Origin: Vibrio ishigakensis | GTDB lineage: Bacteria > Pseudomonadota > Gammaproteobacteria > Enterobacterales > Vibrionaceae | Assembly (NCBI RefSeq): GCF_024347675.1 | Contig: NZ_AP024881.1 | Span: 868,001 to 932,000 of the forward strand | DNA: 64,000 nucleotides | Direction: 5' to 3' | Part shown: positions 19,541 to 62,960 of the stretch, one piece after another | How positions within the stretch are numbered: the stretch's first letter is position 1 | Layout: every line of letters begins with the position of its first letter | Program-made: the position numbers and the translations under genes | The notes under the pieces: generated by a model | Told to the model about the DNA's origin: nothing | The model's input: the letters and a program-made list of their open reading frames with translations, nothing else | Database searches by the model: none

Positions 19541-19596
19541 AGGGTGATTTTTATACTTAGCGTTTGTTTTCCCAAGACAAAAACCAAGTTTGAATA

Positions 19597-19681: not shown

Positions 19682-19736
19682 AGGGTGATTTTTATACTTA
19701 GCGTTTGCTTTCCCAAGACAAAAACCAAGTTGAATA

Positions 19737-19821
19737 TGGTGGAGGGGGACGGATTCGAACCATCGAAGGCAGTGCCGTCAGATTTACAGTCTGATCCCTT
19801 TGGCCACTCGGGAACCCCTCC
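19737..19821 (-). tRNA. tRNA-Tyr (GTA)
   Basis: 85 bases with encoded CCA and anticodon GTA. Same sequence as the other copies; unit spacing is 140 bases. Confidence 0.97.
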
Positions 19822-19876
19822 AGGGTACTTTTATACTTAGTATTTGTTTTCCCAACACAAAAACCAAGTTTGAATA

Positions 19877-19961
19877 TGGTGGAGGGGGACGGATTCGAAC
19901 CATCGAAGGCAGTGCCGTCAGATTTACAGTCTGATCCCTTTGGCCACTCGGGAACCCCTCC
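19877..19961 (-). tRNA. tRNA-Tyr (GTA), promoter-proximal copy
   Basis: 85 bases with encoded CCA. First in the transcript, 58 bases downstream of the -10 element at 20019. Confidence 0.97.
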
Positions 19962-35820: not shown

Positions 35821-35924
35821 TGGGGGTTGGTCCTCCCGCAACAATAGTTCGTGAACTCGGTCAGGTCCGGAAGGAAGCAGCCGCAGCGGATGACTTGTGT
35901 GCCGGGATGTGGCTGGCCCCCACC
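35821..35924 (+). ncRNA. ffs: 4.5S RNA (small signal recognition particle RNA)
   Basis: The universally conserved core is present: GGTCAGGTCCGGAAGGAAGCAGCC around the GGAA tetraloop, then GTGTGCCGGGATGTGGCTGG, and closing arms GGGGG/CCCCC at the ends. The RNA binds Ffh and targets nascent membrane proteins. The boundaries are set by the terminal helix and may be off by a few bases. The 180 bases after it show no gene. Confidence 0.95.
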
Positions 35925-36104: not shown

Positions 36105-36983
36105 CTATCTATCTTTTAGTTTAAGCACTTCATCAATAAAAAACTGCATCGCGGAATTGACGGGTGTTTCAGCGCGCCAAATGAGATCGGTATACCAGTG
36201 AGCGGTATCTTTGACCTCCAACTCAAACTGGTCAACCTCGCCATTCTCAAGTGCTTCGGCACATAGATACAAGGGTACAATCGCCCAGCATGAGCAGTGT
36301 TTAACTAGCTCGAGCATTTCATTTATGTTGTTGCAGTATGTGACCCTATTACTGATATTGTGCCCTTCACTAAGCCCCAGATCTTTTAGGAAACTCACCG
36401 ACACCTGCCGTAACCTTCGCACTTGATGCATGTTTAATTGCTTGCCGGCGAGTTCAAGATCCAGAGATGAGATGTTGGCTATTTGGAAGCTATATGCTCG
36501 AGCCGAGGATAGCTCATGGGGCATAGAGAAGGTGCCGGTACTGAAGCCAATATCAGCTTGACCGGTTAAAACCCAGCTTCGAACCAGAAGGGGATCGCCA
36601 CTAAGTATCTTGACTTCCAGAGTTGGGAACCGAAGAAACAGTTGCTTGTAAACTTGAGAGAGCTCGGCACCGCTCAGCGCTGTATCGATCGCAATGGTTA
36701 TCTTGCTTGGTTCGCCCTCTAGTAGACTGTTTGCCTTGGCATCGAAGTGGTCTAGTTCCCGTAATACCGAGCGTGCATGGTCGTAAAGTTCTTTGCCTTC
36801 TTCAGTTAACTCTAACGACCGGGGCTTTCTAATAAAAAGCTCGAAGCCTACTTCACTTTCCAGATTTGCAACCAATCCACTTATGGTGACGGCGTGTTTT
36901 CCTAAACTGCGACTGGCAGGCTTAAAGCCACCTTTATCTATGGTTTCGACAAAAGCAGTCAGTTGTTCAATCGAGGTTGCCAT
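36105..36983 (-). CDS. LysR-family regulator, divergent from exported amidase
   Basis: A 292-residue LTTR with an N-terminal winged helix (SIEQLTAFVETIDKGGFKPASRSLGKH) and a linker with the common LFIRKPRSLELTEEGKELYDHA pattern. The C-terminal effector domain is about 200 residues. The LGKH motif in the recognition helix and the KILSGDPLLVRSWVLTGQADIG block are shared with the LTTRs at 41101 and 45539, so the three are paralogs. It lies 148 bases from the amidase gene, with a dyad between, and probably regulates it and itself. Effector unknown. Confidence 0.9.
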   Translation of the reverse strand: MATSIEQLTAFVETIDKGGFKPASRSLGKHAVTISGLVANLESEVGFELFIRKPRSLELTEEGKELYDHARSVLRELDHFDAKANSLLEGEPSKITIAIDTALSGAELSQVYKQLFLRFPTLEVKILSGDPLLVRSWVLTGQADIGFSTGTFSMPHELSSARAYSFQIANISSLDLELAGKQLNMHQVRRLRQVSVSFLKDLGLSEGHNISNRVTYCNNINEMLELVKHCSCWAIVPLYLCAEALENGEVDQFELEVKDTAHWYTDLIWRAETPVNSAMQFFIDEVLKLKDR

Positions 36984-37008
36984 CGGACACCTTTATCATC
37001 CAAATCTT

Positions 37009-37031
37009 AAGGGTAGTTTAAACCTATCCTT
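37009..37031. promoter_or_regulatory. Candidate LysR operator (LTTR 36105/amidase)
   Basis: AAGGGTAG and CTATCCTT are arms of a dyad with one mismatch and a seven-base AT-rich centre, between the divergent regulator and amidase starts. Confidence 0.45.
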
Positions 37032-37131
37032 GGGGCCATGGTGAGTCAAATAAAACTGCACAATAATCTGTCGCATCTACAGAGTTGCTTCAACAGGTGA
37101 AGTAACAGGTATTACTCAAAAAGGTATCAAG

Positions 37132-38664
37132 ATGGCACTATCACGCACTTTTAAGTTTGCTCCACTTGCTCTGGCTCTAGTAGCTGGTAGCGCTCTAGCA
37201 GCAGAGTTCTCTCAAGAAGAGTTGGCATTCATGCCGGCAAACACTCAGATTGAGCTTTTTAAGTCAGGTATGATCACACCTGTCGATGTTGTAAAGGCTC
37301 AAAAAGCCCAATACGAAGCGACAAATGATGTTGTAAATGCAGTGACTTATGAGCACTGGGACAAGGCACTAAAAACGGCTAAAGAGGCAACAAAACGTTA
37401 TGAAGAGGGTACTTACCGCTCCCTTGAAGGTGTTACCTACGCGGTGAAAGATGAGCACCATGATGTCGGTTACAAAGTGACCTTTGGTTCAAAGCTTCAT
37501 ATGGATGATGCGCCAAAAGATTACGCTGATCCTATGGTTTCTAAACTTAATGCTGAAGGCGCGATTCCAGTAATTCAAACAACCGTACCAGAGATGTATT
37601 TCAATTGGGTAACCAGCACTGATGCATGGGGAACCTCACGTAATCCATGGAATCCAGAATTCGCTGTAGGTGGTTCTTCTGGTGGTTCTGGTGCTGCTGT
37701 TGCAGCGGGTTACGCGACGATGGCAACGGGTTCTGACATGGGTGGTTCTATCCGTATTCCTTCTTCTTTCAACGGGCTGTATGGCCTAAAACCAGCTGCG
37801 TACAACGTACCTAACTTCGACCTTTACTCCTATTTTTCAGGCAGTGGCCCAATAGCTCGTAGTTTTGAAGATATGGTGTTGATGTACAACGTTATGTCTG
37901 GACCAGACTCACAATGGTCTGTACCAACAGTGGGTAAGCAAGAAAAACTAAGCAAAGAAGTTGAGTCGTTGAAAGGTATGAAGATCGCATACATTGGCGA
38001 CATGGGTACTAGCCCAATGGCTGACTACGTTGCTAAAGGTATGGAAAACGGCCTAGAAGTGCTGCGTAAGCAGGGAGCGACTGTCGATGTTGTTGATTTT
38101 GACTTCGAAATGCAAATGGGTTTGCTAGAGGGTGTATCTAACCTTGCATTCTCCGGTGCTATGGGTGCACCAATGATGGATGGCTATGCTGGTGTAACGG
38201 ACAAAATGACTGCCTACACTGGTAAACTACTGCAAAAAGCAATCGATCACCGCGAGGACTACGATGGCCGCGCTCAAGCTAGAACTCAAGCTGAAGTACA
38301 GCGCATGTGGACCAAGCTATCACAAGAGGTTTACTCTCAAGGCTACGACCTGGTAGTTGCACCAACAATGCCTACAGTAACTGTACCAGCAGACTACAAT
38401 TTCATGACTGATCAGCCAATCAAAGAAGATGGTCATACATACGACAACGCAGTTGGCATGATGTACACTCTGCCATTCAACCTGCTAGGTTGGTTGCCAG
38501 CAGCTAGCGTACCGGCTGGTCTAAGCCCAGATGGAGTCCCATTTGGTATGCAAATTATTGGTAAGCCAGACGACACAGCAACTGTCGTGAAAGTTGCAGG
38601 CGCATACAGCAAAGGTGCCCCCAAGTTCTTTACTCAAGATTTAATGCCAAAAGGCATCAAGTAA
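37132..38664 (+). CDS. Exported amidase-signature-family hydrolase
   Basis: A 510-residue amidase with a clear signal peptide (MALSRTFKFAPLALALVAGS, cleavage after ALA), so it works in the periplasm or outside. The Ser-cisSer-Lys triad is visible: Lys in TYAVKDEHH (near residue 107), cis-Ser in the glycine/serine loop GGSSGGSGAAVAAG, and nucleophile Ser in GSDMGGSIRIPSSFNG. Family members hydrolyse amides, including peptide amides and acyl amides, but the substrate cannot be read from sequence. Its own divergent LTTR and a second LTTR downstream flank it. Confidence 0.9.
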   Translation: MALSRTFKFAPLALALVAGSALAAEFSQEELAFMPANTQIELFKSGMITPVDVVKAQKAQYEATNDVVNAVTYEHWDKALKTAKEATKRYEEGTYRSLEGVTYAVKDEHHDVGYKVTFGSKLHMDDAPKDYADPMVSKLNAEGAIPVIQTTVPEMYFNWVTSTDAWGTSRNPWNPEFAVGGSSGGSGAAVAAGYATMATGSDMGGSIRIPSSFNGLYGLKPAAYNVPNFDLYSYFSGSGPIARSFEDMVLMYNVMSGPDSQWSVPTVGKQEKLSKEVESLKGMKIAYIGDMGTSPMADYVAKGMENGLEVLRKQGATVDVVDFDFEMQMGLLEGVSNLAFSGAMGAPMMDGYAGVTDKMTAYTGKLLQKAIDHREDYDGRAQARTQAEVQRMWTKLSQEVYSQGYDLVVAPTMPTVTVPADYNFMTDQPIKEDGHTYDNAVGMMYTLPFNLLGWLPAASVPAGLSPDGVPFGMQIIGKPDDTATVVKVAGAYSKGAPKFFTQDLMPKGIK

Positions 38665-38684
38665 ACTTAAGTAAGTTCACTATC

Positions 38685-38714
38685 GAGCCTCGCTATCATT
38701 AGCGAGGCTTGCTC
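38685..38714 (+). terminator. Probable terminator after the amidase gene
   Basis: GCCTCGCTA-TCAT-TAGCGAGGC stem with a broken T-rich tail. The following 270 bases, up to the next start, show no gene. Confidence 0.6.
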
Positions 38715-38989
38715 TATTGAAACAGTGTGTGAAGATACCCTTGGATGGTTTCGCTCCAGCGACATTGTCGAGTGAGCAAATCTAGTTATCAGGTAACCAA
38801 ATCGAGATTGAAAAGTTCGCAGATTTTTTGGCCATTCATCCAAGTATTACTTCTACCAAGTGAACACTGATTGACCCGGTTAGAGCAATTTATATTTAAA
38901 CTTGCCTACACTCTTTAATTCCAACCTTGAAGCTGAACTTATAAGAATTGATCCTACACTTTAAGTTCAATACAAAGTGTGGAACCCAA

Positions 38990-39871
38990 ATGTTAATTAC
39001 CCCTGAGCGATTGCTATATCTTATTGCGGTGACCGAGCAAGGCTCGTTCTCTGCTGCAGGCCGTAAACTTGGAGTGAGTGCGTCTGCTGTGGCACAAGTG
39101 GTGCAAAATATGGAGATCGATCTCGATGTCAGGCTATTTAATCGAGTCGCTGGGCAATCACCCTCACTGACCGAAGTGGGCCGAGCTATGTATTTGCAAG
39201 CTCTAGAAGTCGCACCGCGACTACAAGCGATGGAGAAGCGTGCTCAAGCTTATAGCAATGGAATTGAGGATAAGCTCAATATTGCCGTGTTTGGTTTTAC
39301 CTTCTTTCCTGAATATATCCAAGCTATCAACGACCTCTCGATGGAATACCCAGAGCTCTCTATCAATCTAATTGATGTTGAAGACACCGAAGACCTATCG
39401 CCTGATGACACAAACTCAGCAGACATCATTATCTCTCCAACTCAGCTAAAGCTGCGCCCTGGCTATGAATCCCACGTGATTGCTCAATTGGAATGGTTGT
39501 ATGTCGCCTCACCGAATCACCCGCTAGCAAAGATAAGAGGCGAGCTTTCACAGCACGATTTACTCTCTCACAAGCAACTTATGCCTGCGGTAAGTGACTA
39601 TGCTGATGAGCATATTATTGAGTCTCTAAGATTTAGCCCGAACCCTTTGTATTGTTCGCGCTTTTATCATCTCCAGGCGCTGCTTTTAAGTGGAACGGGA
39701 TTTGCCATGTTCCCTCGTCCTCTTGCAGAACCCTTTATAGAGGCCGGCTCTTTGAAAGAACTTCGTATGGACTTTGATGATCAACAAACACGTTGGCCAA
39801 TGGAAATATCCTGGACACCTTCGCTTGGACCGGCAGGGCGATGGTTTGTAGAACAATTTGTGGATTTATAA
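38990..39871 (+). CDS. LysR-family regulator
   Basis: A 293-residue LTTR starting MLITPERLLYLIAVTEQGSF; the upstream in-frame extension to 38948 is unlikely. The recognition helix reads LGVSASAVAQVVQNMEIDL. The C-terminal block (FYHLQALLLSGTGFAMFP, PFIEAGSL) matches the LTTR at 42021, so these two form a second paralog group. It is tandem with, not divergent from, the amidase, and convergent with the Ntn hydrolase at 39977. Its target is uncertain; the upstream amidase or a distant gene are both possible. Confidence 0.88.
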   Translation: MLITPERLLYLIAVTEQGSFSAAGRKLGVSASAVAQVVQNMEIDLDVRLFNRVAGQSPSLTEVGRAMYLQALEVAPRLQAMEKRAQAYSNGIEDKLNIAVFGFTFFPEYIQAINDLSMEYPELSINLIDVEDTEDLSPDDTNSADIIISPTQLKLRPGYESHVIAQLEWLYVASPNHPLAKIRGELSQHDLLSHKQLMPAVSDYADEHIIESLRFSPNPLYCSRFYHLQALLLSGTGFAMFPRPLAEPFIEAGSLKELRMDFDDQQTRWPMEISWTPSLGPAGRWFVEQFVDL

Positions 39872-39930
39872 CTGGATATTTCTGGTGCCGTATTTAGCGT
39901 AAAAACATCGAGTTAAAATCTAATAGGCAT

Positions 39931-39961
39931 AAAAAATGGCAGACTCAGTCTGCCATTTTTT
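39931..39961. terminator. Bidirectional terminator
   Basis: A 12-base stem AAATGGCAGACT/AGTCTGCCATTT with A and T runs on both sides, between convergent genes. Confidence 0.88.
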
Positions 39962-39976
39962 GCGTTCTGTTTGACT

Positions 39977-40972
39977 CTAGAAACTCAATTGTTGGTAGCT
40001 AGTTTGAGTTCCAAAGATTGACTCTGAGTGATACTTCACTTTCGAGAAGTTAATGCTATCAACATCCACCATGCGAATATCCATATTGTCATAAGTACGG
40101 AAGTAGTAATCTTTGTTCGCAATATCGGAGACATTTGAGTACGAGGTGAACTGAGGAGTATCCTCAGCAGCGAAACGCCAGTAGAGAGCCCCTTGAGGGA
40201 TATCGACTGCGTTGATCATCGACCATGCTCGATTCACTGCATCAAAATCGTTCTTCACTAAAGAGAGATCCTGAGTGTGGTTAAAAGCAACCATCTTTTG
40301 GAATCTCCCAATCGGTGAGTAGTCAAATGCCTTGAAGGTTTCTTCTGAGAATTTAGCTTTGCCACCGTCAAGCATCATGTTGGCGAGCGCTTGCTGCTGA
40401 TCGTAGCTAGGATCATTGGTTAGTACGCCGAGCTCGTTTTCATAGATGACTGGATAACCGCTACTATCTAAGTATTCAACGACTATCGATTTTTCACCGT
40501 CATTAAAAGCGTAATGCATTCCTAGGTGTAGACCATCAACAACGTCATAGGCCGCGACCTCTACTTTAGTATCTTTCAGTATCGAGATAACTTCATCCAC
40601 TGACTTAGCTTGGCTCAATACATAAGCAACAACATCTCCCGAGCGAATATCACCATTACCTTCTTCGGCGAACTGTGCGCCGGCAAGCGCAAGTGCTTCG
40701 GCACTTAAACCGTGCTCATTCATTCCCGAGCTAAATAGCTCTTCCCCATGTTGAATGCCCACGAAACCAAGCTTAGTGGTAACGAAGCTGAAATTGTGTC
40801 GCTGCGGTACAACAGAAAATTGACCATTTATCTCTCCAGGCCACTCCATGGTGCGTCCAACGAATGTGTTGCCATTTTCTGTTTCAAAGTGAAAGTTAGT
40901 GCATGCATGTGCCGTCGCTAACGAGCCTGCCATTAGTGTTGCGGAGATTGCGGCTAAGATTGTCTTTTTCAT
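39977..40972 (-). CDS. Exported Ntn-type linear amide hydrolase (choloylglycine hydrolase/penicillin V acylase family)
   Basis: A 331-residue precursor. The signal peptide ends ATAHA and the next residue is Cys (CTNFHFETENGNTFVGRTMEW), which would become the N-terminal nucleophile after processing. Arg and Asp/Asn residues of the family follow in VGRTMEW and MNEHGLSAEAL. Such enzymes cleave amide bonds in conjugated bile salts, penicillin V or acyl-homoserine lactones. The substrate here is unknown. TGGAG precedes the ATG. It is divergent from the LTTR at 41101, its likely regulator. Confidence 0.88.
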   Translation of the reverse strand: MKKTILAAISATLMAGSLATAHACTNFHFETENGNTFVGRTMEWPGEINGQFSVVPQRHNFSFVTTKLGFVGIQHGEELFSSGMNEHGLSAEALALAGAQFAEEGNGDIRSGDVVAYVLSQAKSVDEVISILKDTKVEVAAYDVVDGLHLGMHYAFNDGEKSIVVEYLDSSGYPVIYENELGVLTNDPSYDQQQALANMMLDGGKAKFSEETFKAFDYSPIGRFQKMVAFNHTQDLSLVKNDFDAVNRAWSMINAVDIPQGALYWRFAAEDTPQFTSYSNVSDIANKDYYFRTYDNMDIRMVDVDSINFSKVKYHSESIFGTQTSYQQLSF

Positions 40973-41046
40973 AATTGACTCCAGTATTTGGGTTGTCTGT
41001 AAAACTTGAGGTCATTATGAATTCAAATATCCATTTCAATAACTCG

Positions 41047-41073
41047 TATAGAGTGGGATTTATCCTGCTATAG
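41047..41073. promoter_or_regulatory. Candidate LysR operator (LTTR 41101/Ntn hydrolase)
   Basis: TATAG...GGATTTATCC...CTATA forms a nested imperfect dyad 28 bases upstream of the regulator start. Confidence 0.4.
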
Positions 41074-41100
41074 TTTGGCGATGGACTTGGGAGAAATATT

Positions 41101-41988
41101 ATGGACAAGCCAAACTTCACTTTAGATCAGTTAACGGCATTCATTACGACTGTTGAGTCAGGAAGTTTCAAAAGTGCAGCCACCAAATTGGGCAAACACG
41201 CGACAACAGTTAGCCAGCAAGTGGCGATGCTAGAGGTGGATATTGGGTTTGAGCTATTTGATCGTAAGGTGCGAAAAATTGTCTTAACAGAGCAGGGGCA
41301 TGAGCTCTATCGATATGCAAAACCCGTACTGACCGAGGCATCTCATCTAGTTAATAAACTTGATTCACTGGAACAAAACCTACCCAATAGCTTTTGCTTA
41401 GCATTGGATAGCTCGATCAGAGATAGACAAATTATTCGATGTATCAAACAGGTAAGTGAACAACTCCCGACTATTGAGATCAAAATCCTTAGCGGTGACC
41501 CACTTCAAATCTGTGAGTTGGTAAGGAATGGTGAAGCGGATATAGGTATAAGCACAACACTGTTCACCCAATTGCCACAGTTGGAAACTAAGCAGTTATT
41601 CAATTTTGAATTAGCTTATGTATGTTCGCCTCGCTGGTATCCGGAGCGGGATGTCATCCAAGAAGCAGAGCTGCGATCCTTTCCCCAGATTGTTTTCCCA
41701 TTTGTCTACCAAACGTCTCAACTTTCCGGTCATATTTTGTCTAATCATGTGATTAGTGCTCAAGGTTTTGACGACATGCTTGATTTGCTATCGCTCAATA
41801 TGGGTTGGGCGATTTTGCCCAAGTTTCGTGTTGAAGAGCAGTTAGAATCAGGGGAGTTGAAGGAGTTTTTCCCTCATCAATGCGCCAATGTGAATTGGTA
41901 TTGCGACCTTATCTTAAAAGCAGACAGCAAAACTAATCGGGCGATTGAGTTATTTATTCAAGAGGTTTCTATGCTGAGCGATCGTTAG
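41101..41988 (+). CDS. LysR-family regulator, divergent from Ntn amide hydrolase
   Basis: A 295-residue LTTR. The N-terminal winged helix includes KLGKHATTVSQQVAMLEVDIGFELFDRK, and the effector domain has EIKILSGDPLQICELVRNGEADIG, almost the same block as in the LTTR at 36105. The family pattern and divergent arrangement suggest it senses a breakdown product or substrate of the neighbouring hydrolase. GGGAGAAAT precedes the ATG. It ends 33 bases from the convergent LTTR at 42021. Confidence 0.9.
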   Translation: MDKPNFTLDQLTAFITTVESGSFKSAATKLGKHATTVSQQVAMLEVDIGFELFDRKVRKIVLTEQGHELYRYAKPVLTEASHLVNKLDSLEQNLPNSFCLALDSSIRDRQIIRCIKQVSEQLPTIEIKILSGDPLQICELVRNGEADIGISTTLFTQLPQLETKQLFNFELAYVCSPRWYPERDVIQEAELRSFPQIVFPFVYQTSQLSGHILSNHVISAQGFDDMLDLLSLNMGWAILPKFRVEEQLESGELKEFFPHQCANVNWYCDLILKADSKTNRAIELFIQEVSMLSDR

Positions 41989-42020
41989 TAATTCTGCGCC
42001 CAGCATATCAACGCCTATAT

Positions 42021-42893
42021 CTAACTTTCTTCTAGCTTCTCCACAAACCACTCGCCAGCGACACCGAGTTGGTTTCGCCATAAAACCTCTACAGGCCAGA
42101 AGTTGCCGACGCTACCAAAGTCAAATTGCAAATCTACAAGTAATCCGGAGTCGATCAGTGGCTCGCATAGGTGCGCGGGATAGAGCGCAAACCCAACCCC
42201 AGCTAACAGCATCTCTCGCAACTGATAGAACCGGTCAACAGAAATCACCTGCGTGGAGTAACGCATCGCTTCTCGATACTCTGGTTTGGTGCAAAACCCT
42301 TCGGTAAGCAAAAGCTGCGGTTGTTGATCTAAATCTTCTGGTTCAAGGCGGCCAGACTTGGAGGCGAATGGAAAATCAGGAGTGCATACAATGCGCCATT
42401 CAATGTGGGTAATCGTGGATGCGTTCATTCCTCTGGGTACTTCGTGACGACTAGGACCGACATAGATATCAAAGTCATCGTCGTAACCTGTAAGAGATTC
42501 GGCATCAATGAACTTAACTTCCACCGTTGGGTAGGTGTTGATGAGGGCCTTGATGTCCTGATTGAAGTGATCCGCAAGCGTATACGGGTGAATAGCTATC
42601 GTTAGACTCGGTTCAACACCCTTACTCAGTACCTCGGCGTGTTGCTCCATCAGTAAGACTTTAGGCAAGATATCAAGGGCTTGAACATAGAGCTTCTTGC
42701 CTGCATCGGTCAAAGTCGGGCGTTTCCCATGGTGACGTTCAAAGATCTCTAACTCCAGATCAAACTCCAGCGCCTGGATGGTTTTATTCACTGCAGTGTT
42801 GCTTACCCCTAACTCTCTTGCTGCTGCAGAAAAGCTGCCATGCTGTGCAACGGCCACAAGGTATCTCAGTCGTTCTATGGTGATATGCATCAT
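42021..42893 (-). CDS. LysR-family regulator, divergent from exported serine hydrolase
   Basis: A 290-residue LTTR. The N-terminus ITIERLRYLVAVAQHGSFSAA and the recognition helix ELGVSNTAVNKTIQALE resemble the regulator at 38990, as does the C-terminal FYQLREMLLAGVGFALYP. Two ATGs in tandem (42893 and 42890) could start it. It is divergent from the serine hydrolase at 43003 with a 109-base gap holding a dyad. Confidence 0.9.
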   Translation of the reverse strand: MMHITIERLRYLVAVAQHGSFSAAARELGVSNTAVNKTIQALEFDLELEIFERHHGKRPTLTDAGKKLYVQALDILPKVLLMEQHAEVLSKGVEPSLTIAIHPYTLADHFNQDIKALINTYPTVEVKFIDAESLTGYDDDFDIYVGPSRHEVPRGMNASTITHIEWRIVCTPDFPFASKSGRLEPEDLDQQPQLLLTEGFCTKPEYREAMRYSTQVISVDRFYQLREMLLAGVGFALYPAHLCEPLIDSGLLVDLQFDFGSVGNFWPVEVLWRNQLGVAGEWFVEKLEES

Positions 42894-42911
42894 TTCAACT
42901 TCAAACTTTAG

Positions 42912-42932
42912 GTTTAATGTTTTAACACTAAC
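42912..42932. promoter_or_regulatory. Candidate LysR operator (LTTR 42021/serine hydrolase)
   Basis: GTTTAATGTT and AACACTAAC form an imperfect AT-rich dyad 19 bases from the regulator start. Confidence 0.35.
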
Positions 42933-43002
42933 ATATTTTCAAGCTTGGTTAATATCTTCTCAACAGCACAACACTGCAAACACTGAAAGAAGGTAAATAA
43001 CC

Positions 43003-44265
43003 ATGAAAAAATCACTAATCGCACTCGCACTTATCGCATCAAGCACTTTGAGCATGGCACATGCAACTAGCTCAGTGGGTAAAACCCGAGTAGAAATGGG
43101 GGCAACGGAGTCTAATATTTTGCACCCAGATGTTAACCGCTACACCTATAAAAACCTGAGTGAGTTTGTTCACACCAAGCAAATTGATAATGGTGGCTAT
43201 AAGCAAGTGATTGAGCTAGAGCAGTCGAATAAACAACTCGATCTCAATATGAGTTTTGACCACTTAGGCAAACAACTGAATCTTCAAGATATTCTTCGCA
43301 AGCACCGAGCAGACGCCTTTGTTGTTCTCAAAGACGGAAAAATTGTAGCCGAGCAATACTTTGATGGTCAGAGTGAGCGCACACATCACCAAATGATGAG
43401 CGTAACCAAATCCTTCACTGGCATTATCGCAGCAAGCCTAGTTGCTGAAGGTAAGTTGGATCGAAATGAGTTGGTTGGCACTTATATTCCAGAACTAGCG
43501 CAATCTGCGTTTGGCTTGGCTACTGTAGGCGAAGTGCTAGATATGACTAATAATCTCGACTATTCAGAAACCTATGAAGATCCTAATGCAGAGGTATTTA
43601 AGCACGCCAAAACGGTTGGTCTAACGCCAAAAGAGCCAGGTTATACAGGGCCACAAACCATCTATGAATTTTTAGCAGAGTTGGAGAAAGATGGCGACCG
43701 ACCCCATGGACAGGAATTCCATTACCTAACAGCGAATACGGACGTAGTGGGTTGGCTTATTTCTAAGATTGAAGGCAAGCCTTTTAGTGAGGTCTTGGAA
43801 GAGCGTATCTGGACCAAGTTAGGGATGGAGCGAGGTGCTTACATCATGTCTGACCCTGCTTCTGTTGGCCTTGCTTCTGGTGGTCTAAACGGTACCGCCC
43901 GCGATATGGCTAGATTCGGTCAGATGCTGGCAGATGGAGGCAAAAACCTTCGTGGCGAACAAGTTATTCACCCGAACGCTATCCTAGAAACCGAGAGAGG
44001 TGGAGATCCGAAGAAGTTTGTTAAAGGGGGCTATAGCGAAGGTGCTTTAGAAGGTTGGTCATACAAAAACCAGTTCTGGCACACCATGAATGAGAACAAC
44101 GCCTATACGGCTCTGGGCATTTTTGGCCAGTGGATTTACGTTGACCCAACAGAGAATGTCGTAGTTGTTCGCCAGGCTTCTGCTGAGAGATCGATTGTTG
44201 ATTCGTATGACCATGAGATGGTGTCGGCAATCAATGAAATTGTTCGCCGATTGAAGCAAAGCTAA
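43003..44265 (+). CDS. Exported serine hydrolase of the beta-lactamase/NylB-like family
   Basis: A 420-residue protein with a signal peptide (MKKSLIALALIASSTLSMA, then HA). The active-site SxxK motif is in MMSVTKSFTGI (near residue 131), and the Tyr motif is in YLTANTDVVGW. A GGLNGTARDMARFGQML stretch follows, as in class C beta-lactamase-like and 6-aminohexanoate-dimer hydrolase (NylB) enzymes. These cleave esters or linear amides rather than beta-lactams in many cases. Substrate not assignable. A perfect hairpin follows the gene. Confidence 0.85.
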   Translation: MKKSLIALALIASSTLSMAHATSSVGKTRVEMGATESNILHPDVNRYTYKNLSEFVHTKQIDNGGYKQVIELEQSNKQLDLNMSFDHLGKQLNLQDILRKHRADAFVVLKDGKIVAEQYFDGQSERTHHQMMSVTKSFTGIIAASLVAEGKLDRNELVGTYIPELAQSAFGLATVGEVLDMTNNLDYSETYEDPNAEVFKHAKTVGLTPKEPGYTGPQTIYEFLAELEKDGDRPHGQEFHYLTANTDVVGWLISKIEGKPFSEVLEERIWTKLGMERGAYIMSDPASVGLASGGLNGTARDMARFGQMLADGGKNLRGEQVIHPNAILETERGGDPKKFVKGGYSEGALEGWSYKNQFWHTMNENNAYTALGIFGQWIYVDPTENVVVVRQASAERSIVDSYDHEMVSAINEIVRRLKQS

Positions 44266-44282
44266 GTCAACCTATGAAACCA

Positions 44283-44310
44283 TTCAGCCTAGCTCGCAAG
44301 CTAGGCTGAA
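44283..44310. terminator. Hairpin between convergent hydrolase genes
   Basis: A perfect 12-base stem TTCAGCCTAGCT/AGCTAGGCTGAA with loop CGCA and no T run on either strand. Terminator function is likely but unproven. Confidence 0.55.
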
Positions 44311-44344
44311 CTATTGGAGCTGACTGATCTGAACTCAGAACAAA

Positions 44345-45415
44345 TTAGCTCTCACATTTACCCCAAGTCACCTCTCGTTCACCATTGTTGGCTTGCTCAA
44401 CAACGTCGGCACACATTGGAGTGGTGAACTCTTGTGTATCTGAAAAGTTGTAACCGATTTGGGTGCGCGTATCGTAGTTGGTAAACAAGAAATCACCGTT
44501 CTCATGGTTGTAGGTAAACTGAGTCCAGGTTGCGTAAGTCTCATCGTTGGTTGGGTCGATGAGGTCTTGTGGGATTAGGTTACCTGCGTTGTATGTGCTT
44601 AGTAGCTTGCCACGGGTTTGCGCCCAGCTTGCATCTTCTTTGAACGTAACGTGTTTAGTGTTAAATAGGCCTCGTAAGTTACGGTCTAGTGAACTGATTG
44701 AGCTAGGGATGCCTTTGGCAGTTAGGTCGTCTAGGTTAACTTTCTCAACGTAGGCACGATGGTCTTGCTGTAGTGGAGAGTTTGCCATTACTCGCAGGTC
44801 TGAGTTTACGTCGCCACGGTGAACAACCATCTTTCCACCGTGGTTTAGCTGAAGCAGCGCGATGTCACCGGATTTATCTTGGATAGAAATGTGCAGGCCA
44901 TGCTGTTTACAGTGTAGGCCATCCTCCCACGCAATTTGCCATTCGTCATTGTTGAACGCTTTCACAGCTTCTTCAGTTGTCGCGTAAGTCTCCGTGATGT
45001 AACGAATAACATCGAGGAAGCTAACCGCAGGTGCGCCAGTGTCTTTGTAATCTTTAATAAACTTCTCTGAGTCAGCCATATAAAGTAGGGAAGCGGCCAG
45101 ACCTTCAGAGTTGATAGCGTCAGATGCAACGCCGTGGAACACATCCCATTCCATTTGAGCAATTGCGTGGTACTTAGTCGTCCACTGCATCGCTTTGTTG
45201 TAGCTTGGGGTCTCAGTAGTGTTGGTAACACCAACAGGGTTTACTTGTGCAACGTTACCTAACTGGTCTCCCCAATCTAGCGAACGCACTGTTGATACGC
45301 CATATGGCGTATCTAGAGTAAAGCGTGAACACGCGCTTGCTGTGCCAGCAATAGTCGCTAGTGAAGCGGCAGCGATTGCGATAGTAGCGATTTTTTTAAG
45401 CTTGAATGATTTCAT
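44345..45415 (-). CDS. Exported Ntn-type linear amide hydrolase, second paralog
   Basis: A 356-residue precursor. The signal peptide (KKIATIAIAAASLATIAG) ends TASA directly before Cys in CSRFTLDTPYGVSTVRSLDWG, the predicted N-terminal nucleophile. The SLDWG segment is the counterpart of the family's Arg-Thr/Asp-Trp block. It is only distantly similar to the enzyme at 39977, so the pair is probably not a recent duplication. I start at 45415; an in-frame ATG further upstream would place a polar stretch before the signal peptide. Divergent from the LTTR at 45539. Confidence 0.86.
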   Translation of the reverse strand: MKSFKLKKIATIAIAAASLATIAGTASACSRFTLDTPYGVSTVRSLDWGDQLGNVAQVNPVGVTNTTETPSYNKAMQWTTKYHAIAQMEWDVFHGVASDAINSEGLAASLLYMADSEKFIKDYKDTGAPAVSFLDVIRYITETYATTEEAVKAFNNDEWQIAWEDGLHCKQHGLHISIQDKSGDIALLQLNHGGKMVVHRGDVNSDLRVMANSPLQQDHRAYVEKVNLDDLTAKGIPSSISSLDRNLRGLFNTKHVTFKEDASWAQTRGKLLSTYNAGNLIPQDLIDPTNDETYATWTQFTYNHENGDFLFTNYDTRTQIGYNFSDTQEFTTPMCADVVEQANNGEREVTWGKCES

Positions 45416-45499
45416 AATAAATCTCTCTCTAATTGATGGGTTGTTTGTTGAGACGAGTCTATTATTGCTATCAATCTTGATTATCAAAGCGGCTGAGAG

Positions 45500-45514
45500 T
45501 AGGGGATTCCCCTA
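45500..45514. promoter_or_regulatory. Candidate LysR operator (LTTR 45539/Ntn hydrolase 2)
   Basis: A perfect palindrome TAGGGGA-T-TCCCCTA 25 bases ahead of the regulator start, in the 123-base divergent region. Confidence 0.5.
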
Positions 45515-45538
45515 TGAAATGAATATAGCGAGAGAAAT

Positions 45539-46417
45539 ATGTCAGCATCCTTAGACCAACTGCGAGCCTTTGTCGCCACTGTCGAAAATAAAGGGATGGC
45601 ACAAGCGGCCAGACATTTGGGTAAGCACGTCTCTACGGTGAGAGAGCAGCTCAACAACCTAGAGATCGATACGGGTATTGAGTTGTTTATTCGACATCCT
45701 CGCTCTTTAGAAGTGACCCCTCAAGGGGAGCAACTGTATAAATCTGCGATGGCTATGCTAAAAGAGGCTGCACTGTTTGATGCCAATGTAGACAGTATTT
45801 TGCAAGGTGTCCCCGACAAGCTAACCATCGCGATAGACTCCAGCTTGATGGAAGAATCCATCGATAGCATTGTCGCTAGTCTTGCCGATACTTATCCTCA
45901 TATGTCGTTAAAACTCCTGACTAGCGACACAATGCAGATACAGAGTTGGATAATCTCAGGTATTGTTGATATTGGGATTATTTTCAACACCTTACATATT
46001 CATGACGAGCTGACGGCAGAAAAGGCATACTCCTTTGGAGTGCAGCACATAGTACCAGCGTCATGGGACTTATCCGACGAGGTCAAGTTCGATCACCTTA
46101 ACGATAAGCTACAGATCAGCCTTTCATTTTTATCGGATATTGGGATACGCAGTGCCGATGTGACGAGTCATCGCTTCATGTTGTGTAACAACGCCATACA
46201 GACCTTGAATCTCGTAAAAGCAGGGGTTGGTTGGGCGTCACTCCCAGGCTTTGTCTGTCAGCAAGCAATTGAGGAAAAACAGGTGCGTCTTTATCAGGTC
46301 AGTGACGATAGTATTTCAGAGTGGATGACGAACGTGGTGTGGCAGAAGCAAAAAGCTATCAATCCAGCAATGAAGATGTTTATTGAACAAGTGCAAAATC
46401 TACCGAGCAAGCGTTGA
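45539..46417 (+). CDS. LysR-family regulator, divergent from second Ntn amide hydrolase
   Basis: A 292-residue LTTR beginning MSASLDQLRAFVATVENKGM. It has the HLGKHVSTVREQLNNLEID recognition segment and IELFIRHPRSLEVTPQGEQLY linker shared with the LTTRs at 36105 and 41101. The gene start is preceded by GAGAGAAAT. The effector domain includes TLNLVKAGVGWASLPGF, the usual LTTR hinge block. The 270 bases after it hold an imperfect dyad (TACCC...GGGTA near 46527) and no gene. Confidence 0.9.
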   Translation: MSASLDQLRAFVATVENKGMAQAARHLGKHVSTVREQLNNLEIDTGIELFIRHPRSLEVTPQGEQLYKSAMAMLKEAALFDANVDSILQGVPDKLTIAIDSSLMEESIDSIVASLADTYPHMSLKLLTSDTMQIQSWIISGIVDIGIIFNTLHIHDELTAEKAYSFGVQHIVPASWDLSDEVKFDHLNDKLQISLSFLSDIGIRSADVTSHRFMLCNNAIQTLNLVKAGVGWASLPGFVCQQAIEEKQVRLYQVSDDSISEWMTNVVWQKQKAINPAMKMFIEQVQNLPSKR

Positions 46418-56055: not shown

Positions 56056-56727
56056 TTAGAAGTAGTAGTTTGCTTGTAGCCAGGCAACGGTGTCTTCCTT
56101 ATTCACCAAGTTCTTTTTCGAAGATTCTCCGGTATATTCAATCTTTGCGCCAATTGAAGCGTTGTCGAGAATCATGTAGCCACCACCCACTTCTATTTGT
56201 GGTATCCACTCTTTGCTTTGCTCGTGATAAGTCGCTTTAGGGTTTGCATAGACCCAGTGCCCAGCGTCAAATCCGTACATACCATAGACGCCAAGTTGGC
56301 CAAGTGCAGATTCAGATTTAGGCTGACCATCCTTTGCATCGGACGTGGTGTAACCTACTGAAGCCATTGGAAATAGAGTGATCTTGTCGGTGGCTTGGAA
56401 CTTATAGATAGCACCAGCAAGAGCCGTTGTATTGTCTTTATCTCCAAGTACATCCAGGGAATAACCTAAGCCATCTGTAACATGAAAGTATCTACCGCGA
56501 TAATTCATATCACCCGACTTGTTGTCTATCCCAAGATCCAGTTGAAATATATTGCTGCCTAATCCGATCATACCGTTAAGCTGAGTACTGTTTTCGCTGG
56601 CACTTACACCAAGGGTGCTGAAGCTCGCTGTAGGATCGCCATAGTTGACGCTTTCTGCATCCTGCTCGTTTGCAATAGCGCCACCGCATGCTCCAGCTAT
56701 TGCCAGCCCAATTAATAACTTTTTCAT
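56056..56727 (-). CDS. Outer-membrane beta-barrel protein, divergent from LTTR
   Basis: A 223-residue exported protein: signal peptide MKKLLIGLAIAGACGGAIAN, then strands with frequent Gly and Tyr (SLDVLGDKDNTTALAGAIYKF, FPMASVGYTTSD, IPQIEVGGGYMI) ending in Phe (LQANYYF). GGAG precedes the ATG. It is divergent from the LTTR at 56828 with a 100-base gap, so the regulator probably controls it. The ligand and pore function are unknown. Confidence 0.75.
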   Translation of the reverse strand: MKKLLIGLAIAGACGGAIANEQDAESVNYGDPTASFSTLGVSASENSTQLNGMIGLGSNIFQLDLGIDNKSGDMNYRGRYFHVTDGLGYSLDVLGDKDNTTALAGAIYKFQATDKITLFPMASVGYTTSDAKDGQPKSESALGQLGVYGMYGFDAGHWVYANPKATYHEQSKEWIPQIEVGGGYMILDNASIGAKIEYTGESSKKNLVNKEDTVAWLQANYYF

Positions 56728-56827
56728 CTAAATTTCTCCGAAATATGGGTTGTTTTCGGAGGTATTTTTGCAATTTACACAAAATAGATTAAATTGATAA
56801 GTATCGATTTTTATAATAGGTGGGAAG

Positions 56828-57703
56828 ATGATTAACCTCGATTACTTGCTTGCATTTGTTTCAGCAGCCGATAAAGGCTCTTTCTCTGCGGCAGGAAGGC
56901 ATATAGGAAAAAGCCAAAGTACAATTAGTGTCAGTGTGAGCAACCTAGAGTTAGATCTTGGTGTTTCTTTATTCGATCGTACCGGGAAGTACCCTGTTTT
57001 AACTCCAGAGGGAGAGCATCTGTATCAACAGGCCAAGGTGTTAATGCGTCAAGCCGATAGAATCGAGAACTATACCTCGGGAGTTAGGAATCAAGTTGAA
57101 AACTCATTAGTCATTGGATTAGACCCCTTGGTACCTTTTGCTTTGATTGAAACACCGCTAGAAAAAATCTCACAGAAGTTTCCCTTTACTCAGATCCAAA
57201 TTAAAAAGGAAAAGAGCGAGGAGTTGTTCAGACAACTCAACGAGAATAAGGTCGACTTCGTGCTCCATCTTACTGCAGAAGCCATACCTGACTACTATGA
57301 ATTTGCTTGCATTCATCAGCTCGAGTGGACATGTGTATGCAGTCCAGACAGCGAGTTTGCTGACTTGGAAGTGGTCAAAAACGACTTGTTGACTACAGAA
57401 AGGCAGATTATTTGCACCAGCCTTTATGAGCATGGGGTACTAGGGTCAGTTAGTACACTGTCTCAATCTGTGTGGCTAGCGCATGATCAAGATGACATGA
57501 TTCGCATGGTAGAGCAGGGAATTGGATGGGCAGTATTGCCAACCATCATGCTACAAGAGCGAGTAGGTCTGGGTACTCTAGTTGAGTTTACTCCAGAGTA
57601 TATGAAGTCAAATCAATCCTATGGTGTGGACCTGGTTTGGAAAGCGAATGATAGCCTTGGCCCAGTGGCACACTATCTTCGAGAGTTACTGTTTGCCAGC
57701 TAA
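56828..57703 (+). CDS. LysR-family regulator, divergent from beta-barrel gene
   Basis: A 291-residue LTTR (MINLDYLLAFVSAADKGSFSAA; recognition helix HIGKSQSTISVSVSNLELDLGV; hinge block DMIRMVEQGIGWAVLPTIML). The HIGKS segment is close to the LGKH group of the 36-46 kb island, so it may belong to the same expansion. GTGGGAAG precedes the ATG. It probably regulates the adjacent outer-membrane protein. Confidence 0.9.
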   Translation: MINLDYLLAFVSAADKGSFSAAGRHIGKSQSTISVSVSNLELDLGVSLFDRTGKYPVLTPEGEHLYQQAKVLMRQADRIENYTSGVRNQVENSLVIGLDPLVPFALIETPLEKISQKFPFTQIQIKKEKSEELFRQLNENKVDFVLHLTAEAIPDYYEFACIHQLEWTCVCSPDSEFADLEVVKNDLLTTERQIICTSLYEHGVLGSVSTLSQSVWLAHDQDDMIRMVEQGIGWAVLPTIMLQERVGLGTLVEFTPEYMKSNQSYGVDLVWKANDSLGPVAHYLRELLFAS

Positions 57704-58284: not shown

Positions 58285-58875
58285 ATGAAAAAATTAATTC
58301 TAGCTTCAACTCTTGCACTAATGTCCGCGTCTTCTTTTGCAGCAGACGATCACTCAGGCTTCCGCGTAGGTGGTGGTTTTGGTACAGATATTGGTAAGTA
58401 TCAACTGCGTAGCGTAGATGATAGTGGCAAAAAAGTGGAAGCCGATCCTTCAGTAGTCTTGGAAGCGGGCTATGACTTTAACGACATCTTTGCGATTAAT
58501 GTTAAGGGCTCTGGTACTGGCTTTAAAGCTTATGAAAATAACAAGTCTACGAAAGGTCAAAACAAAGGTACAGCCTATGACCTAGCAGTTGAAGCTGAAG
58601 TTGGTTATACGTTTGTAACCGCGGGAGATGCAGCAATTAAGCCTTATGTTGCTCTCGGTGCGGTCGGTTTTGACAAAAAAACAAGTGAGAATCAACTTGA
58701 AGATAAAAATGCTGTAAGAGCTCGTGGTGCTGCTGGTGTTCGCATGACGCTAGACAACGGTGTTTACTTTGATGGCCGTATTCAAGCCACTGACTTAACT
58801 CCAAAAGGCGATAAGTTCAACGGTAAAGACCACCTACTAACTCAAGGTCTAGTGACTGTTGGTTACAAGTTCTAA
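58285..58875 (+). CDS. Small outer-membrane beta-barrel protein, family copy 1
   Basis: A 196-residue exported protein: signal peptide MKKLILASTLALMSASSFAA, then glycine-rich strands (FRVGGGFGTDIGKYQLR, VLEAGYDFNDIFAINVKGSG, VEAEVGYTF, IKPYVALGAVGF) and the ending GLVTVGYKF. This resembles OmpA/OmpW-type eight-strand barrels. Its twin at 59870 encodes the same protein. Relatives at 59012 and 63656 make a four-member local family. ACGAGGTAATCAAAC precedes the ATG. Function unknown. Confidence 0.8.
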   Translation: MKKLILASTLALMSASSFAADDHSGFRVGGGFGTDIGKYQLRSVDDSGKKVEADPSVVLEAGYDFNDIFAINVKGSGTGFKAYENNKSTKGQNKGTAYDLAVEAEVGYTFVTAGDAAIKPYVALGAVGFDKKTSENQLEDKNAVRARGAAGVRMTLDNGVYFDGRIQATDLTPKGDKFNGKDHLLTQGLVTVGYKF

Positions 58876-58932
58876 TTCAATTACCCCATGAATATGAACA
58901 CTCTAATTTAGGCGGTTACCTCGCCTAACCCC

Positions 58933-58957
58933 GGCCCCCGAAAGGGGGCTTTTTTGT
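58933..58957 (+). terminator. Terminator of barrel copy 1
   Basis: GCCCCC-GAAA-GGGGGC plus a six-T run, preceded by a second hairpin AGGCG/CGCCT. Confidence 0.9.
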
Positions 58958-59011
58958 TTCATTTGCGAGTTAGCGTTTTATCGTTAATTGGCTTTGCATT
59001 TGGGTAGAAAA

Positions 59012-59590
59012 ATGAAATATAAATTATTGGCACCATTGCTTTTGCTTATTTCCAGTTCTTCAATAGCTGGGATGGATCACTCAGGTTTGCGCGTTGGTGC
59101 AGGCTTGGCTTCAGACATGGGCATGTTCAAAATAGAAGATAAAATTACAGGTTATGATTCCGATCCTTCGGTCATTGTTGATCTTGGTTATGATTTTAAT
59201 GATGTCTTTGCCATAAATATCACCGGCGCTTCGACGGGCTTTAAGTGGGACCGTGGTAAACAGAAACCTAAGTATATAGATACAGCCTATGAGGTAGCGG
59301 TAGCAGGCGAAGTGGGTTATACCAAGGTAACTGAACGCGGGTTTACCATTAAGCCGTACCTTGCGCTCGGTGGTGTTTATTATAATAAGCAGGCGAACCT
59401 TCTTTTTACAGGCAGTGATGGCGGCAGTGATGTTCGTGCCCGTGGCACAATTGGACTGAGAGTTGCTATAGATAATACGCTCTACTTGGATAGCCGTATT
59501 CAGGCAACTAACGTTGCTTATGATGGTAAGTTGTCAGGTAAAGAAGATCTCTTGACCCAAGGGTTAGTTACTGTAGGTTATAAATTCTAA
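59012..59590 (+). CDS. Small outer-membrane beta-barrel protein, diverged family member
   Basis: A 192-residue paralog of the flanking twins, starting at the ATG at 59012 (MKYKLLAPLLLLISSSSIAG); a frame eight codons longer has no signal peptide at its N-terminus. Conserved blocks are HSGLRVGAGLASDMGMF, VDLGYDFNDVFAINITGAST, AVAGEVGYTKV and the ending LLTQGLVTVGYKF. About half the residues differ from the twins. It is enclosed between the two 776-bp repeats and lacks their leader. Confidence 0.78.
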   Translation: MKYKLLAPLLLLISSSSIAGMDHSGLRVGAGLASDMGMFKIEDKITGYDSDPSVIVDLGYDFNDVFAINITGASTGFKWDRGKQKPKYIDTAYEVAVAGEVGYTKVTERGFTIKPYLALGGVYYNKQANLLFTGSDGGSDVRARGTIGLRVAIDNTLYLDSRIQATNVAYDGKLSGKEDLLTQGLVTVGYKF

Positions 59591-59627
59591 TCCTAATAAA
59601 TTAGAACGATTAAAAAATATCTAGAAT

Positions 59628-59666
59628 AGCCCCAATGGTTGAATATCAATCATTGGGGCTTTTTTA
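59628..59666 (+). terminator. Terminator of the diverged barrel gene
   Basis: AGCCCCAATG/CATTGGGGCT stem followed by a T run. Confidence 0.88.
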
Positions 59667-59869
59667 TGATTAAATAAAATTAACACTCCTAATTCTTAAT
59701 AAGAACACTATTAACCACTAGTTTGATTCTGATAAGTAAACCATCTATCTAATAAGTTAATACTAGCTATTTTCACCTATTGTAAATATTTGCGTAAATT
59801 ACACCTCAAGCCAAACGGGATTGGCAACAAATCAAATGGAGGTATTTAAATTTAACGAGGTAATCAAAC

Positions 59870-60460
59870 ATGAAAAAATTAATTCTAGCTTCAACTCTTG
59901 CACTAATGTCCGCGTCTTCTTTTGCAGCAGACGATCACTCAGGCTTCCGCGTAGGTGGTGGTTTTGGTACAGATATTGGTAAGTATCAACTGCGTAGCGT
60001 AGATGATAGTGGCAAAAAAGTGGAAGCCGATCCTTCAGTAGTCTTGGAAGCGGGCTATGACTTTAACGACATCTTTGCGATTAATGTTAAGGGCTCTGGT
60101 ACTGGCTTTAAAGCTTATGAAAATAACAAGTCTACGAAAGGTCAAAACAAAGGTACAGCCTATGACCTAGCAGTTGAAGCTGAAGTTGGTTATACGTTTG
60201 TAACCGCGGGAGATGCAGCAATTAAGCCTTATGTTGCTCTCGGTGCGGTCGGTTTTGACAAAAAAACAAGTGAGAATCAACTTGAAGATAAAAATGCTGT
60301 AAGAGCTCGTGGTGCTGCTGGTGTTCGCATGACGCTAGACAACGGTGTTTACTTTGATGGCCGTATTCAAGCCACTGACTTAACTCCAAAAGGCGATAAG
60401 TTCAACGGTAAAGACCACCTACTAACTCAAGGTCTAGTGACTGTTGGTTACAAGTTCTAA
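59870..60460 (+). CDS. Small outer-membrane beta-barrel protein, family copy 2 (identical twin)
   Basis: Encodes the same 196 residues as the gene at 58285, with the same leader and terminator. Both copies should be expressed alike, so the pair raises dosage and provides substrate for recombination that would delete the diverged member at 59012. Unequal exchange between the twins would change copy number by one unit. Confidence 0.8.
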   Translation: MKKLILASTLALMSASSFAADDHSGFRVGGGFGTDIGKYQLRSVDDSGKKVEADPSVVLEAGYDFNDIFAINVKGSGTGFKAYENNKSTKGQNKGTAYDLAVEAEVGYTFVTAGDAAIKPYVALGAVGFDKKTSENQLEDKNAVRARGAAGVRMTLDNGVYFDGRIQATDLTPKGDKFNGKDHLLTQGLVTVGYKF

Positions 60461-62452: not shown

Positions 62453-62920
62453 TTAGTTTACGGTGCATATTGGTTGAAATGGAGTCGCGTTGATTGGGAA
62501 TACGCGGTCATAGATTAGGTTGAATACTGCTGAGTAAAATAGAGCGTAAATAACGAAGCCAATATCAGCAATCAGAGCTTCAATGAAGCTCAAATTAAGG
62601 CTTAGTGCAAGTACTGGAACTGTAACCAAGATTAGACCTAGTTCAAATAAGACTGCATGCATAACTCTTTGCTTTGAAGTTTTATTACAATGCCCTTGTG
62701 TTTTATATAGGTGTTTATCAAATAGAAAGTTAAATAACATGTTCCATGCCATAGCCAGTAGAGACATTGCCATAGCTAGAATACCTACATGATGACTAGC
62801 ACCCTGGATAAACATCATACCGATAGGTATTAAAGTTACAATTAATCCAATCTCAAAAAAGATAGTGTGACGAATTCTGTCCATGAAAGAGCGATTGGTT
62901 TTAATATTGTTAGTATTCAT
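62453..62920 (-). CDS. PACE-type efflux transporter (BTP domains), second gene of pair
   Basis: A 155-residue inner-membrane protein with four predicted helices in two tandem bacterial-transmembrane-pair repeats: RIRHTIFFEIGLIVTLIPIG and RVMHAVLFELGLILVTVPVL. Each carries the conserved Glu in helix 1/3, the residue needed for transport in AceI. PACE pumps export biocides such as chlorhexidine and short polyamines. It follows the gene at 62961 after 40 bases, and both probably form one transcript. Confidence 0.85.
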   Translation of the reverse strand: MNTNNIKTNRSFMDRIRHTIFFEIGLIVTLIPIGMMFIQGASHHVGILAMAMSLLAMAWNMLFNFLFDKHLYKTQGHCNKTSKQRVMHAVLFELGLILVTVPVLALSLNLSFIEALIADIGFVIYALFYSAVFNLIYDRVFPINATPFQPICTVN

Positions 62921-62960
62921 AATATATCTCCCATCTAATCGTTAGTAACTTTAAATTGGC

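Follow-up and report, generated by a model that had tools for sequence, protein, structure and literature searches.

Gram-negative choloylglycine-type hydrolases include penicillin V acylases as well as enzymes active on N-acyl-homoserine lactones (AHLs): according to a review, Slac1 and Slac2 of Shewanella loihica are active on AHLs but on neither penicillin V nor bile salts (PMC8066178). The natural substrates of such acylases, of NylB-like hydrolases and of many marine bacterial amidases are mostly unknown. Genes laid out divergently from a LysR regulator gene are common in general. Here we analyse a 64-kb stretch of the Vibrio ishigakensis genome (contig NZ_AP024881.1), termed the window, whose positions are used throughout. 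A block of nine genes (36105-46417) encodes five LysR regulators (R1 to R5) and four predicted exported hydrolases, i.e., the amidase-signature enzyme AMD, the choloylglycine-type N-terminal-Cys enzymes CB1 and CB2 and the NylB-like SxxK hydrolase BLA. On balance, we lean towards the view that four portable cassettes have come together in this block, each composed of a predicted exported amide/ester hydrolase and its LysR regulator, which would serve to split external N-acyl amides in the periplasm. The literature searched yielded no description of the block, the cassette or the regulator clade, with most subscription papers outside the reach of that search.

Layout of the block and its four enzymes

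The genes are arranged in the order <R1 AMD>, R2>, <CB1 R3>, <R4 BLA>, <CB2 R5>. The gaps between divergent enzyme and regulator genes measure 148 nt (R1/AMD), 128 nt (CB1/R3), 109 nt (R4/BLA) and 123 nt (CB2/R5, counted from the CB2 ATG at 45415; a longer TTG start is possible at 45487). The original prediction, made from the letters of the window, of four exported hydrolases each facing a divergent LysR gene is thereby borne out, with gaps of 109-148 nt, Pfam-backed assignments and export as a prediction. It had also placed five LysR genes among the hydrolases; the fifth of them, R2, is not divergent from any hydrolase but lies 319 nt behind AMD, in the same orientation, and converges on CB1. 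All five regulators contain the Pfam domains HTH_1 and LysR_substrate. The host genome comprises two contigs (4.79 Mb), the window being part of the 2.97-Mb contig. A genomic island recognizable by composition was considered and rejected, as the G+C content of the block (0.42-0.47 in 1-kb steps) compared with that of the flanks (0.43-0.49) gives no sign of one.

The folds of the enzymes are assigned by sequence matches. Each of the four carries a leader ending in AxA, and in CB1 and CB2 the catalytic Cys directly follows the leader end (leaders and cleavage sites judged by eye); all four are predicted to be exported. AMD is a member of the amidase signature family (PF01425, 268.8 bits), in which alignment identifies Lys, cis-Ser and nucleophile Ser as K106-S182-S206. 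Its nearest solved relatives include GatA, aryl acylamidase, NylA and FAAH, and it reaches no NCBIfam equivalog cut-off (best 273.6 of 506). BLA (PF00144, 127.6 bits) aligns best to NylB-type hydrolases, namely to 4gb7 over most of its length (E 8e-63) and to NylB over the catalytic domain, and S133-x-x-K136, Y191 and Y241 match the SxxK and Tyr residues of NylB. The alignment puts Ala202 and Ser292 where NylB has Asp181 and Asn266, two residues on which the nylon-oligomer activity of that enzyme depends.

CB1 and CB2 match PF02275 at 133.8 and 43.3 bits, respectively (cut-off 20.4). CB2 belongs to the choloylglycine family and retains its full residue set (N-terminal Cys after the leader, Arg, Asp, Asn, Asn, Arg); CB1 keeps all of these residues except Asp, which is Glu in four of four CB1 rows and also in two non-CB1 rows of the choloylglycine alignment. 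The best solved relative of CB2 is 5x8z, a “Penicillin V acylase-like protein” that aligns over the full length (E 6e-67) and presumably stems from S. loihica; the named relatives of CB2 are for the most part from Vibrio.

The family names of CB1, CB2 and BLA might point to a detoxification of penicillins or bile salts, and conjugated bile salts had also been put forward as possible substrates, and penicillin V as an assay compound, from the letters of the window. The profile scores tell against this: CB1 attains 109.7 of 350 for the NCBIfam bile-salt hydrolase and 73.1 of 600 for the penicillin V amidase (YxeI type), CB2 matches neither of these models, and BLA, whose best alignment is to NylB-type hydrolases, attains 30.9 of 415 for the class C beta-lactamase. 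We regard detoxification as highly improbable. A penicillin amidase gene of V. cholerae is said to be repressed by AphA, which our literature search did not confirm.

Regulator clade and predicted operators

LysR proteins of the host genome were compared with each other (24 of 94 candidates, matching at E 1e-15, and two encoded beside another choloylglycine gene). The best matches of R1, R3 and R5 are one another (142-214 bits, next at most 116), and R2 and R4 likewise match each other best (214 bits, next 99). A tree of 51 LysR rows sorts by partner: R5 goes with CB2 in nine of nine rows, R3 with CB1 in four of four and R4 with BLA in five of five, and relatives of R2 stand beside another choloylglycine-type gene in five of five. 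The R1 branch switches partner, from AMD in the window to a CB2-like Ntn (N-terminal nucleophile) hydrolase in genome G052 (support 100/98), and CB2-like genes (47% and 50%) also stand opposite other R1 relatives (45-47%) of V. superstes and G498. A search with R1 in nine genomes at E 1e-30 returned 21 matches, of which 17 face a choloylglycine-family gene and the other 4 AMD, all divergently, a count that speaks for the regulators of these genomes and not for the genus, since the nine were chosen for holding these enzymes. R1, R3 and R5 diverged before the species compared here, and each is found elsewhere with its own enzyme. A recent duplication of regulators in place was rejected on the regulator tree; growth of the block by this route, as originally proposed, is not supported, given the early split.

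Each enzyme-regulator gap holds sequence kept between species. With the window kept out of the training set, the operator models find their top site of the 64 kb in the matching gap in four of four cases: the R1 model scores 29.4 bits (next non-overlapping window site 17.4, control maximum 15.9), R3 22.9 bits (next 17.7, control 15.1), R4 39.4 bits (next 13.3, control 15.5) and R5, trained without genome G008 as well, 35.6 bits (next 8.0, control 11.7). In fetched loci outside the controls, the R5 model reaches up to 12.8 bits (L054) and the R3 model up to 17.7 (L052). The R1 site fits the T-N11-A pattern of LysR proteins and in two of four species is a near-perfect inverted repeat, AAGGATAGG-TTTAA-CCTATCCTT. 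By their domains, the divergent gene and the conserved inverted repeat in the gap, the regulators classify as LysR proteins with divergent targets, R2 excepted; for R2, an operator was sought with the host gene at C2:329302, where upstream regions align too loosely for a site to be claimed. Taken together, the conserved predicted operators in four gaps speak for a dependence of enzyme expression on the adjacent regulators, with binding and direction of control being predictions from sequence.

In the window, the R5 model scores no hit in the gaps of R1 and R3, so each regulator would have its own site. That several regulators have different operators points to several ligands, which argues against a set dedicated to quorum quenching or recycling, i.e., one that mainly destroys AHLs. 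That role could draw on the full-length match of CB2 to 5x8z and on Slac1 and Slac2, which, according to PMC8066178, are active on AHLs and inactive on penicillin V and bile salts. Yet one characterised relative of moderate identity is too little to settle a substrate, and nothing ties AMD or BLA to AHLs. A dedicated quenching set thus seems unlikely to us; an AHL is a leading candidate substrate for one of the enzymes.

The exchange of operators is best followed in genome G008, where AMD has no adjoining R1, insertion-sequence-like genes lie upstream (judged by eye) and R5 is the sole member of the clade found at E 1e-30. An R5-type site upstream of this AMD scores 24.5 bits with the model blind to G008 and the window (control maximum as above). 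Across 227 genus genomes, a degenerate R5 pattern, derived from ten sites including that before the G008 AMD, has eight matches, of which seven fall in R5-CB2 gaps and one before the G008 AMD; the reversed pattern has none in these genomes. The R1 model finds no R1-type operator before the G008 AMD, and none in the G052 cassette of CB2b. Read most simply, AMD exchanged control by R1 for control by R5 in G008, so that AMD and CB2, two unrelated folds, would answer to one signal there. Because AMD carries the predicted operator of R5, a regulator otherwise found beside a Cys-hydrolase, one regulator clade serves unrelated enzyme folds.

The surroundings of AMD-R5-CB2 in G008 (L043, L241; 1.26-Mb contig) also contain, in another order, relatives of the window genes at 46690, 48119, 49345, 50730, 56056 and 56828, as well as relatives of the window segments 58285-60460 and 62453-63440.

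Distribution and recombination of the pairs

In 61 genomes (60 of the genus and the host genome), CB1 occurs in 8 and CB2 in 7 (E 1e-20), BLA in 5 and AMD in 2 (E 1e-60). At E 1e-80, AMD is present in 6 of 227 genus genomes, five of them, the host included, at an identity of at least 82%, and at E 1e-100 the host genome alone holds it among 295 genomes of the order. No examined neighbourhood of relatives contains all four enzymes; single pairs and groups of two or three enzymes are found instead. Conservation of the block in relatives, which the original prediction had envisaged, is therefore not upheld. Its notion of a modular set of predicted exported amide hydrolases, each with its own regulator, is supported, a single regulator clade being paired with unrelated folds; the block as a conserved whole is not.

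The recurring unit is the enzyme with its divergent regulator. CB2-R5 pairs occur in the window, V. comitans (L036), V. superstes (L037), Paraferrimonas (L038), V. methylphosphonaticus (L039), Shewanella waksmanii (L040), V. breoganii (L041) and the genomes G052 (L042), G008 (L043) and G498 (L254). AMD-R1 pairs are found in the window, V. superstes (L246), G498 (L247) and V. comitans (L248), BLA-R4 pairs in the window, L038, L044 and L045 (plus a 34% relative in L070), and CB1-R3 pairs in the window, L042, L050 and as V. superstes copies in L255-L257. The CB1-R3 pair of L075 has a gap of 405 nt and an interrupted CB1 frame, and in L046 the R3 frame is interrupted. The pairs recur over several species and two further families. 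Given that R1, R3 and R5 separated earlier than the species compared here and that each accompanies its own enzyme elsewhere too, the block seems to have brought together old pairs.

Paraferrimonas, which is not a Vibrio, holds R5-CB2-BLA-R4 in the same order as the window. Its CB2 is nested in those of Vibrio (moderate support, 85/92), and no other R5 branches more deeply than its own, which suggests transfer together with uneven change of the regulator. Further combinations comprise a stretch of approximately 7 kb in which three Ntn hydrolases alternate with as many divergent regulators (G052, L042), AMD beside R5-CB2 (G008, L043), AMD-R1 followed by a 33% NylB-like gene (V. comitans, L248), a 32% NylB-like gene approximately 1 kb from CB2 (V. 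breoganii, L041), a 39% amidase divergent from a choloylglycine-type gene that an R2 relative adjoins (G456, L249) and, 4 kb from CB2, another exported Ntn-type gene (AAT) that faces a divergent LysR gene (S. waksmanii, L040). In tblastn searches at 1e-10, 5 of 12 outside loci with CB2 or AMD (15-21 kb each) contain a further enzyme of the set, whereas none of 39 control regions of the genus, which are shorter (5.9-7.0 kb, 267,295 nt in total), contains any. The scattered and differently combined pairs suggest a system of interchangeable modules by which acylated small molecules would be used or destroyed.

The pairing was also surveyed genus-wide with 60 choloylglycine-family genes (59 from 27 of the 61 genomes, plus CB2 of G052) and, as controls, 155 interior non-LysR genes of at least 150 residues from the 39 control regions. 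A divergent LysR gene lies within 300 nt of 13 of the 60 genes versus none of the controls, and any LysR neighbour within this distance accompanies 23 versus 2; the Fisher p values of 2e-8 and 9e-13 (8e-7 and 2e-11 after dropping five genes of the host genome) are too small, because the genes are related to each other. By the same measure, all four block enzymes have a divergent LysR gene, which exceeds what chance would give. The survey relied on mechanical gene calls, some contig-end genes and a LysR profile from the 51 tree rows, so some LysR neighbours may be missed, and the R2 relatives in L173 and L174 indeed escaped the count.

These data bear on coincidental clustering, by which four unrelated scavenging enzymes with unrelated substrates came to be adjacent by chance. 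The commonness of the LysR-divergent layout, the occurrence of several enzymes alone and the fact that the whole block is seen nowhere else would agree with chance. It is opposed by the close paralogy of the block regulators, the renewed meeting of the same enzyme types in other genomes, the R5 operator before AMD in G008 and the lack of any divergent LysR gene among the 155 controls, and we consider it quite improbable.

The reading as a gathering of dedicated cassettes has to contend with several findings in addition to the choice of genomes for the R1 search. No LysR neighbour was recognized for 37 of the 60 PF02275 genes surveyed. Four CB2 relatives at 55-57% (G035, G039, G056, G059; L047-L049, L071) are without a LysR neighbour and directly precede an outer-membrane-barrel gene (relatives of OMPx, 54-56%). 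In G052, the LysR gene opposite a 64% BLA relative belongs to another clade (L051), and the BLA relatives in L072 and L074 (38-40% by protein match) and L073 (36%) have no window-like LysR neighbour. Finally, the R3 operator, modelled from two training sequences, lies just 5.2 bits above the next window site.

Several observations concern the neighbours of these genes. OMPx itself is a 223-residue barrel-type protein encoded in the window with its own divergent LysR gene Rx (56056-57703). A conserved family of approximately 105 residues, with no Pfam match above cut-off, adjoins CB1 relatives (L042:9969-10286, L046:6082-6396, L075:6366-6680) and the R4 relative in L070 (5079-5438). V. superstes carries a tandem pair of CB1-LysR cassettes with a similar 153-residue exported-looking protein after each CB1 (L255), and, on each of its two large contigs, an apparently identical CB1-LysR cassette whose match scores are equal and whose neighbours differ (L256, L257).

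Elsewhere in the window, a small signal recognition particle RNA gene (35825-35921) lies upstream of the block. Two tandem five-gene operons for oligopeptide-type ATP-binding cassette transporters (4076-9666 and 10147-15683) have very similar permease and ATPase translations. A 196-residue outer-membrane-type protein is encoded in two copies of identical translation (58285-58875 and 59870-60460) with a divergent relative between them (58988-59590), and its relatives are repeated in G008 and V. superstes. A molybdenum cofactor riboswitch (695-841) and four tandem tRNA genes of equal scores (19459-19961) were also noted.

Table 1. Genes and predicted operators of the hydrolase block in window coordinates.
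Feature	Position	Strand	Basis
R1, LysR regulator of AMD	36105..36983	-	Pfam; AMD-R1 divergent pair also in L246, L247, L248
Predicted R1 operator AAGGGTAGTTTAAACCTATCCTTGG	37009..37033	+	Model from L246-L248 only, 29.4 bits
AMD, exported (predicted) amidase-signature hydrolase; K106, S182, S206	37132..38664	+	Pfam, alignment
R2, LysR regulator, no divergent partner here	38984..39871	+	Pfam; relatives adjoin another choloylglycine-type gene
CB1, exported (predicted) choloylglycine-type Ntn hydrolase; Cys24	39977..40972	-	Pfam, alignment
Predicted R3 operator	41039..41074	-	Model from two sequences only (L042, L046), 22.9 bits
R3, LysR regulator of CB1	41101..41988	+	Pfam, neighbourhoods, tree
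R4, LysR regulator of BLA	42021..42893	-	Pfam, neighbourhoods, tree
Predicted R4 operator	42898..42941	+	Model from L038, L044, L045, 39.4 bits
BLA, exported (predicted) NylB-like SxxK serine hydrolase; S133, K136, Y191, Y241	43003..44265	+	Pfam, alignment
CB2, exported (predicted) choloylglycine-type Ntn hydrolase; Cys29	44345..45415	-	Pfam, alignment
Predicted R5 operator AGGGGAATCCCCTACTCTCAGCCGCTTTGATAAT	45480..45513	-	Model without window and G008, 35.6 bits; also matches the degenerate pattern
R5, LysR regulator of CB2	45539..46417	+	Pfam, neighbourhoods, tree

Proposed mode of action and comparison with known systems

In the proposed mechanism, each cassette would consist of one predicted exported amide (or ester) hydrolase and a divergently encoded LysR protein that binds an operator in the gap, and the cassettes would be gained, lost and recombined separately. 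An external N-acyl amide would reach the periplasm, where the enzyme would cut it into acid and amine; the substrate or a product would then enter the cytoplasm, bind to the LysR protein and raise transcription of the enzyme gene. It is most likely that the enzymes share a chemical class of substrate, because the clade serves Ntn Cys-hydrolases as well as an amidase, and because the G008 AMD carries the R5 operator. N-acyl amides are proposed as this class, ligand and substrate alike being putative.

More tentatively, R1, R3, R5 and their relatives may form a distinct LysR clade dedicated to exported linear-amide hydrolases, which would keep its ligand class through an exchange of the enzyme fold and whose members would capture each other's targets by operator change (the amidase being under R1 in four genomes and under R5 in G008). 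If so, the chemistry would be set by the regulator and not by the enzyme fold, and LysR ligand assays could show what entire groups of orphan exported amidases act on. A fold-spanning regulator clade with defined operators would offer a direct handle, giving the inducer first and the substrate class after. The amidase that seemingly switched its regulator between related species would moreover provide a natural case of operator capture.

Compared with described systems, CB1 and CB2 resemble the Gram-negative choloylglycine hydrolases, i.e., penicillin V acylases and the AHL-active Slac1 and Slac2 (PMC8066178), in fold family, N-terminal Cys after the leader and catalytic residues. They differ in that a LysR clade of their own accompanies them and that they share the block with other folds, and CB1 has Glu in place of the usual Asp. 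BLA shares the SxxK motif and both Tyr residues with the NylB 6-aminohexanoate-dimer hydrolase family, whereas Ala202 and Ser292 replace the two residues on which nylon activity depends. AMD has the triad and the Pfam match of amidase-signature enzymes such as GatA, aryl acylamidase, NylA and FAAH, but in contrast to these possesses a predicted export leader and a LysR partner, R1.

The regulators have the domains, the divergent layout and the inverted repeat in the gap of LysR proteins with divergent targets in general; in the genomes examined, however, their clade is found only beside exported linear-amide hydrolases and appears to exchange both enzyme fold and operator. The nylon-oligomer enzymes NylA, NylB and NylC likewise unite an amidase signature, a class C fold and an Ntn hydrolase, all acting on amides. 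Unlike NylC, the Ntn members here are of the Cys-dependent choloylglycine type, and the likeness is an analogy only, with no sign of nylon use in the block.

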